DNA of 64,000 bases. Origin: Micromonospora zamorensis (GTDB lineage: Bacteria; Actinomycetota; Actinomycetes; Mycobacteriales; Micromonosporaceae). This document shows positions 51,913 to 51,996 of this stretch, piece by piece. The notes under the pieces are model-generated. The model was not told where the DNA came from, did not search any database, and saw only the letters and a program-made list of their open reading frames with translations. A program made the position numbers and the translations under genes. The DNA lies in the NCBI RefSeq assembly GCF_900090275.1, contig NZ_LT607755.1:62001-126000 (forward strand), read 5' to 3'. How positions within the stretch are numbered: position 1 is the first letter of the stretch; each line of letters begins with the position of its first letter.

Positions 51913-51996
51913 CTCAAGATCCGCACAACTTCTCGGATGTTGCTGCCTCCAGCGTCCCGGAGGCAGCAACTTCCCCGAACTTGTGCGGATCTTGAG
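51913..51996. repeat. Intergenic nested palindrome, family A copy 3 (best preserved)
   Basis: Outer arms 51913-51932 and 51977-51996 match over 20 bp with one mismatch (CTCAAGATCCGCACAA perfect). Inner arms GTTGCTGCCTCC (51939-51950) and GGAGGCAGCAAC (51959-51970) are perfect. It lies between convergent genes. Confidence 0.9.

Follow-up and report, generated by a model that had tools for sequence, protein, structure and literature searches.

Analysis of the window (the whole stretch of DNA under study, 64,000 nucleotides, corresponding to bases 62001-126000 of a single 7,095,932-bp contig) revealed that its three nested palindromes belonged to one real two-layer family, here called family A, whose sequence matched the description in the earlier note at all three sites. 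Members of the family were 80 bp long, mostly lay at the same intergenic places in related genomes, had arms that covaried, and in part carried G-rich tandem arrays leaving their edges. The explanation that we favor, and to which we give about an even chance, is that family A is an ancient, genus-specific palindromic repeat that is maintained at the DNA level, is tolerated or used as a hairpin at gene 3' ends, and seeds polarized arrays at its borders.

When placed in register, the three window copies were exactly 80 bp long, each with two 35-bp arms flanking a 10-base loop, and the limits reported for them previously were at most 3 bases off these ends. Copy 1 (6618-6697) consisted of a left arm with the A stem, B module, and C stem (6618-6652, plus strand), a loop (6653-6662), and a right arm (6663-6697, minus strand), and was located in the convergent gap between an unassigned gene that ends at 6581 and a minus-strand carboxyl-transferase gene (6742-8325). 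A tandem array, (GCGCGATCAG)3.1 (6686-6717, plus strand), started within the last 12 bases of this copy and ran outward. Copy 2 (44106-44185; left arm 44106-44140, plus strand; right arm 44151-44185, minus strand) was located in the divergent gap that separates a putative minus-strand cyclase gene (43102-44016) from mfd, and its outward flank (44186-44300, plus strand) was G-rich and of low complexity by eye, and was not called as an adjoining array. Copy 3 (51915-51994), with arms at 51915-51949 (plus strand) and 51960-51994 (minus strand) around a loop at 51950-51959, sat in the convergent gap between a DUF885 gene ending at 51876 and a minus-strand gene (52012-52704). The two convergent gaps and one divergent gap assigned to these copies in the earlier note were reproduced by our own gene caller, and the RmuC gene it had placed in the window was located at 35839-37002 on the minus strand, with nothing seen to connect it with family A.

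Each half-element followed the consensus CAAGATCCGCGCAAC.ATCAGGGAT.GTTGCTGCCTC, which led through the ten loop bases into its reverse complement. A smaller palindrome, CAAC(A/T)TC-NNN-GA(A/T)GTTG, was contained in each arm, and its three-base centre, in the B module, occurred both ways round, as AGG or CCT. The inner-stem pattern was present at all three window sites and in none of 100 shuffles of the window, although copy 2 (AAAGTGCTGCCTCC / GGAAGCAGCAAC) deviated from the exact wording in which this stem had been described. Folding as single-stranded DNA gave -41.0, -31.9, and -37.3 kcal/mol for copies 1, 2, and 3 (z -9.8, -7.0, and -10.8), and for each copy this stability was equalled by 0 of 200 shuffles. 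Other inverted repeats in the window shared a GATCA theme (30725-30806, 4085-4153, and 50152-50214; arms 82-95% complementary) and possibly form a second palindrome family.

A search of the whole genome, which had been suggested earlier, showed that further copies exist. BLAST located the family at no fewer than 40 sites (40 of 50 candidates were scored), 87 matches came from a half-pattern search, and 51 ungapped 80-bp copies were identified in the stretches fetched around matches in the 7.1-Mb genome. A copy was defined as an ungapped 80 bp agreeing at 42 or more of the 70 stem positions, a scan to which indel-bearing copies are invisible; an additional copy of 81 bp was located at 1783954, and a solo half-element, with no partner within the 200 bases shown, was located at 5709527. 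The alignment for the covariance model comprised 42 of the 51 copies, and the nine omitted had a damaged or replaced outer arm (634913, 801416, 828002, 4589130, 4817915, 5036577, 5849783, 5887750, and 6813214). At L063:3578, L026:3414, and L057:3215 the outer arm was swapped for inner-stem-like or other palindromic sequence, and the arms of copies with a replaced outer arm look as if they had been rebuilt from the other module. Subfamily 2 palindromes (G000:C1 866202, 1616529, 1783174, 5754205, and 6813890) shared the AAGATC/GATCTT ends of family A, had another inner stem (GATCCAGGATGTAGTGGCCTC-like), and measured 73-77 bases end to end; palindromes with these ends and this type of inner stem were also found in the mfd gap of other species. 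The subfamily 2 palindrome at 866202 and a family A copy were about 56 bp apart, separated by a (GGGGCGC)n array. The half megabase at 4.0-4.5 Mb of G000:C1 contained 12 of the 51 copies, compared with an average of fewer than four. A segment carrying a gene for a secreted-looking protein of about 218 amino acids was present three times (L034:3377, L037:3287, and L039:3227; G000:C1 3564876, 4212786, and 4276726), with 97.7% identity over 1.15 kb in one pair and 84-93% in pieces in the others, and the main matched stretch of these segments started 7-22 bp outside a family A palindrome.

Related genomes were searched with the covariance model of 42 copies, as had also been proposed in the earlier note, and of 121 Micromonospora genomes, 99 were positive at E 0.001, 8 of these with a best E above 1e-6. 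A survey of 397 genomes of the order at E 1e-6, run with strict filters and few candidates scored per genome, gave 55 positive genomes, 49 from the same genus and six from two other families. These six were not counted as members because their E values, the best of which was 2.4e-8, were no better than those of the weaker genus genomes. The strict half-pattern recovered 12 stretches from a named genome collection, and all 12 were from Micromonospora. Family A palindromes were found in the first 100 bases or so of several draft contigs (G056:C39:77, G056:C68:2, G083:C47:23, G004:C68:28, and G109:C118:92), and therefore the elements probably break assemblies. Searches of an open-access library listed no account of family A; Micromonospora was absent from the main text of RepRanger (PMC12306157).

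The family A copies are best read, from their positions and divergence, as old and as having been inherited mostly vertically at fixed sites. The element was at the same place in 39 of 44 site comparisons with the relatives G056 and G093, a figure that measures orthology rather than a retention rate because the loci of these relatives were picked for holding an element. The five element-less comparisons comprised two 81-bp elements missed by the ungapped scan (G093 5126694 and 6261699), two sites not bracketed by flanks, and one true absence, that of copy 3 in G093. Poor alignment led to the removal of three pairs from the 39 (828002, 4545410, and 5194828 in G093). In the remaining 36, 242 of 2520 stem positions (9.6%) and 119 of 360 loop positions (33%) differed, which agreed with the earlier statement that the arms are kept while the loops differ, and the 60-bp flanks were 64.5% identical, compared with 52.9% for randomly paired flanks, so that conservation fell from stem to loop to flank. 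The nearest paralogue in the same genome differed at a median of 12 of the 80 positions, and the G056 orthologue at a median of 7. For G056, 19 of 23 orthologues were nearer to the copy than its closest own paralogue; for G093, a more distant relative, this was so for 0 of 16. Four own copies had a paralogue at 4-5 differences, about as close as the orthologues, and therefore some of the copying may be recent. The closest paralogue pair sat in the 1.15-kb duplication.

Two sites that had not been selected for the presence of elements in other genomes gave a patchier picture. An element was located within 600 bp behind the DUF885 gene in 5 of the 30 best-matching of 115 genomes (G000, G056, G047, G088, and G108). 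In the mfd gaps of the 30 best-matching of 121 genomes, one variant was by reading common to six (G000, G056, G119, G108, G045, and G034), its distance from mfd ranging from 54 to 359 bp; some of the loci were truncated by the end of a contig. Several changes of the presence label were required on a 27-genome tree. Either an early origin followed by repeated losses or transfer from one species to another would account for this patchy occupancy.

The earlier note had asked whether the stems covary, and the results showed that they do. In the 42 copies, the covariation score was 0.121, a value reached by 0 of 500 shuffles (shuffle score 0.095), 55 cells were changed on both sides, compared with 41.3 (above 498 of 500 shuffles), and 85.2% of the cells were paired, compared with 83.8% (above 497 of 500); two of the five measures, the pair and type counts, were not above shuffles, and the pairing was well short of complete. 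A structure-free test was applied to ungapped 80-bp copies scoring at least 50 of the 70 stem positions (49 own copies and 89 from other genomes). In the 89 copies, the stem pairs 24-57, 23-58, and 26-55 were the top three of 2281 column pairs. Eight stem pairs were among the top 30 in this set, a count that may be inflated since some of the 89 copies are orthologous to one another, and only 2 were among the top 30 in the 49 own copies. A cloverleaf fold with local B hairpins was rejected; it paired 87.2% of the cells, but its covariation was 0.102, compared with 0.121 for the long hairpin.

A stem made of RNA tolerates G-U pairs but not A-C. The mismatches in the 51 own copies were 67 G-T and 65 A-C, those in the 20 codirectional copies oriented by transcription were 27 and 27, and those in the 89 copies from elsewhere were 91 and 121. 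G-T was not commoner than A-C, and therefore the pairing of the arms looks like a property of the DNA and not like selection on an RNA fold. The earlier suggestion of selection on the fold was thus borne out only in part: the arms covary, but the lack of any preference for G-T over A-C points to DNA rather than RNA. With no G-U preference in its stems and no match in Rfam 15 above the gathering threshold in the window, where sub-threshold matches to microRNA hairpins at copy 3 were the only ones seen, an RNA element was rejected. Template switching between the arms of inverted repeats has been reported to homogenize the arms and to invert the spacers (PMC8604942, PMC8794818).

The polarized arrays beside the palindromes had gone unmentioned in the earlier note. 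The stretches used to measure arrays and skew were those selected around elements. Of 102 element sides, 26, belonging to 22 of the 51 copies, had an array with a period of 5-60 at a distance of at most 40 bp; in 144 gaps free of the element, arrays were present in 36 of 744 windows (odds ratio 6.7, p 4e-10). Arrays were also found in the element gaps at distances above 100 bp, in 27 of 204 windows. The arrays were just 2.2-fold commoner near the element than far from it (p 0.010), and therefore the gap itself accounts for some of the enrichment. Of the array sides in other genomes, 8 of 17, 10 of 16, and 8 of 17 had the array flush with the palindrome (within 3 bp). The last bases of the palindrome were part of the array in copy 1 and at 5980746. 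Reading outward, the arrays were G-rich on 24 of 26 sides in the own genome and on 16 of 17, 16 of 16, and 15 of 17 sides in other genomes. This polarity was outward on both sides, whatever the orientation of the genes; of the two exceptions in the own genome, the array left of 866334 doubled as the outward flank of a subfamily 2 palindrome. Sides towards gene 3' ends had an outward G skew of +0.25 (control +0.01) and those towards 5' ends one of +0.23 (control +0.02), and the skew had faded by 150-200 bp. On the 75 array-free sides it was still +0.175 (61 positive, 11 negative), which implied that slippage is not the whole story.

The arrays turned over while the palindromes stayed. Among the 72 sides of the 36 orthologous pairs, 43 had no array, 17 had one in one species, and 12 had one in both, and the array unit was the same on 2 of these 12 (5346423 and 5988917, both compared with G056). 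In 78 other intergenic hairpins, the skew was +0.03 for the 46 with stems of at least 16 and +0.01 for the 32 with stems of 11-15, and arrays were present on 14 of 156 sides with mixed polarity (6 G-out, 8 C-out). A generic hairpin effect as the cause of the arrays was rejected, as these hairpins showed neither the skew nor the polarity; they were mostly shorter, and therefore length may be the difference. Insertion of the palindromes into pre-existing arrays was disfavored because the polarity flips across the element and orthologues mostly carry different arrays. We tentatively suggest, as something short of an even chance, that the palindrome acts as a minisatellite generator, both edges having repeatedly founded new arrays with the G-rich strand nearly always leaving the element. 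If so, one fixed element would carry unrelated arrays of the same polarity in different species, and the polarity would show which strand is the template when a fork or a repair polymerase fails at the base of the hairpin.

The placement of the copies relative to genes bears on another explanation, in which family A is a bidirectional terminator or mRNA 3'-end hairpin under selection as RNA, with a C-rich approach that might load Rho. According to our own codon-based gene caller, which is unvalidated, 0 of the 51 copies overlapped a gene by more than 15 bp, and the gaps that held them were convergent for 24, codirectional for 20, and divergent for 7. Convergent gaps were enriched (24/51, compared with 44/287 for the remaining adjacent gene pairs of these stretches; p 1.7e-6). 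Of the 20 codirectional copies, 19 were nearer to the 3' end of the upstream gene (p 4e-5). This placement fits terminator-like use or mere avoidance of promoters. Transcripts from either side would reach a C-rich stretch and then the hairpin, and hairpin ends lacking U are common in Streptomyces clavuligerus, where 353 highly structured transcript ends had no U-tract and 182 were U-rich (PMC8269248). The explanation is unlikely on balance, as the codirectional copies showed no excess of G-U over A-C, the G skew was as strong on sides facing gene starts, no T-tract terminator-like site was found around copy 3, the only copy scanned, the element was not found at 25 of the 30 best-matching DUF885 loci, and a separate hairpin was located between the gene and the element at 3564876. 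The earlier view that a terminator role alone is insufficient was upheld. The absence of a G-U preference is also what a palindromic double-strand binding site would give, for a dimeric or higher-order DNA-binding protein such as a nucleoid protein or a regulator. Thirteen columns were invariant across the 42 copies, several of them symmetric (5/76, 12/69, 18/63, 22/59, and 34/47), and the length was nearly fixed at 80 bp, in line with such a site. However, stem positions 23, 24, and 26 changed with 58, 57, and 55, which is unexpected for independent half-sites, the sites come and go between species, and 80 bp is long for one dimer, which leaves a binding site rather improbable.

Mobility was weighed in two forms, and neither was convincing. 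A non-autonomous MITE-like element that a transposase of the genus still mobilizes in trans would account for about 50 dispersed copies bounded by terminal inverted repeats with sharp ends, the complementarity generally stopping at 80 bp and extending beyond it in two of the 51 copies, by 8 and 11 bp. The patchy presence at orthologous gaps, the related palindromes with common CAAGATC...GATCTTG ends, and the four copies with a paralogue at 4-5 differences are in keeping with it as well. On the other hand, direct repeats of 2-9 bp that could be target-site duplications were not above shuffles in the 51 copies, except for 2 cases at 5 bp compared with 0.17 expected, and paralogues were more different than the G056 orthologues. 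The closest paralogue pair is located in the 1.15-kb duplication, and no autonomous partner was seen in a transposase search that covered Y1_Tnp only. We regard such an element as having a slim chance, and the idea of a currently mobile hairpin raised in the earlier note is not supported in view of the orthologous positions, the lack of target-site duplications, and the distance to the nearest paralogue. Mobilization of a REP/BIME/REPIN element by a RAYT (TnpA_REP), also raised there, can practically be set aside. Family A is intergenic, palindromic, and multicopy like these elements, but its unit was 80 bp in the 51 copies (81 bp in one), at least twice the 20-40 bp by which REPs are defined (PMC4666352), and the REP-associated transposase that had been sought was not found, with 0 matches to Y1_Tnp (PF01797) in the whole genome, whereas 5 of 14 control genomes were positive. 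A REP/RAYT system was rejected accordingly, unless its RAYT is a diverged one.

The preferred explanation, an ancient palindromic repeat maintained as DNA, would have the following course. The approximately 50 palindromes of the genome would have spread long ago and would now be inherited mostly vertically at fixed intergenic sites. The complementarity of the arms would be kept at the DNA level, by template switching during replication, by a DNA-level use of the palindrome, or by both. Beside gene 3' ends, the palindrome would be tolerated and probably used as a bidirectional hairpin without a U-tract that may affect transcription. DNA synthesis would slip repeatedly at both ends and so produce species-specific arrays that are G-rich on the strand leaving the element. 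An SbcCD-type nuclease attacks palindromic structures. The genome encodes SbcD (over the cut-off) beside an SbcC-like protein (below the cut-off), and thus about 50 palindromes coexist here with genes for a nuclease of this type. The palindrome stays while the arrays change, and therefore the sites provide natural replicate experiments on the birth of hairpin-associated repeats, in which the strand polarity of the arrays is a constraint that any mechanism must explain. Family A also suits the study of how the arms of inverted repeats stay alike, and it could possibly serve as a marker set for the genus Micromonospora.

REP, BIME, and REPIN elements with RAYT transposases occur in enterobacteria and pseudomonads and are intergenic, palindromic, multicopy, and often near gene 3' ends. 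Family A resembles them in being intergenic and palindromic, with many copies near gene 3' ends, but differs in its single 80-bp unit, the lack of a RAYT match, its largely orthologous positions, and its polarized flanking arrays. Repeats of the ERIC, RUP, and NEMIS types are long imperfect palindromes, each type dispersed among the intergenic regions of a single clade. Family A is like them in these respects and is unlike them in that no target-site duplication was found here and arrays lie at its borders. Inverted repeats maintained by template switching (PMC8794818, PMC8604942) are similar in that the arms are alike and that the B-module spacers AGG and CCT occur in both orientations; in contrast to the published cases, family A is a dispersed bacterial family for which switching is proposed rather than demonstrated event by event. 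With the U-lacking ("I-shaped") terminators described for high-GC actinobacteria (PMC8269248), family A shares a stable hairpin without a U-tract at gene 3' ends. Unlike them, it is a conserved sequence family that also occurs in divergent gaps and has no G-U preference, and it is longer than nearly all of the other intergenic hairpins found here.
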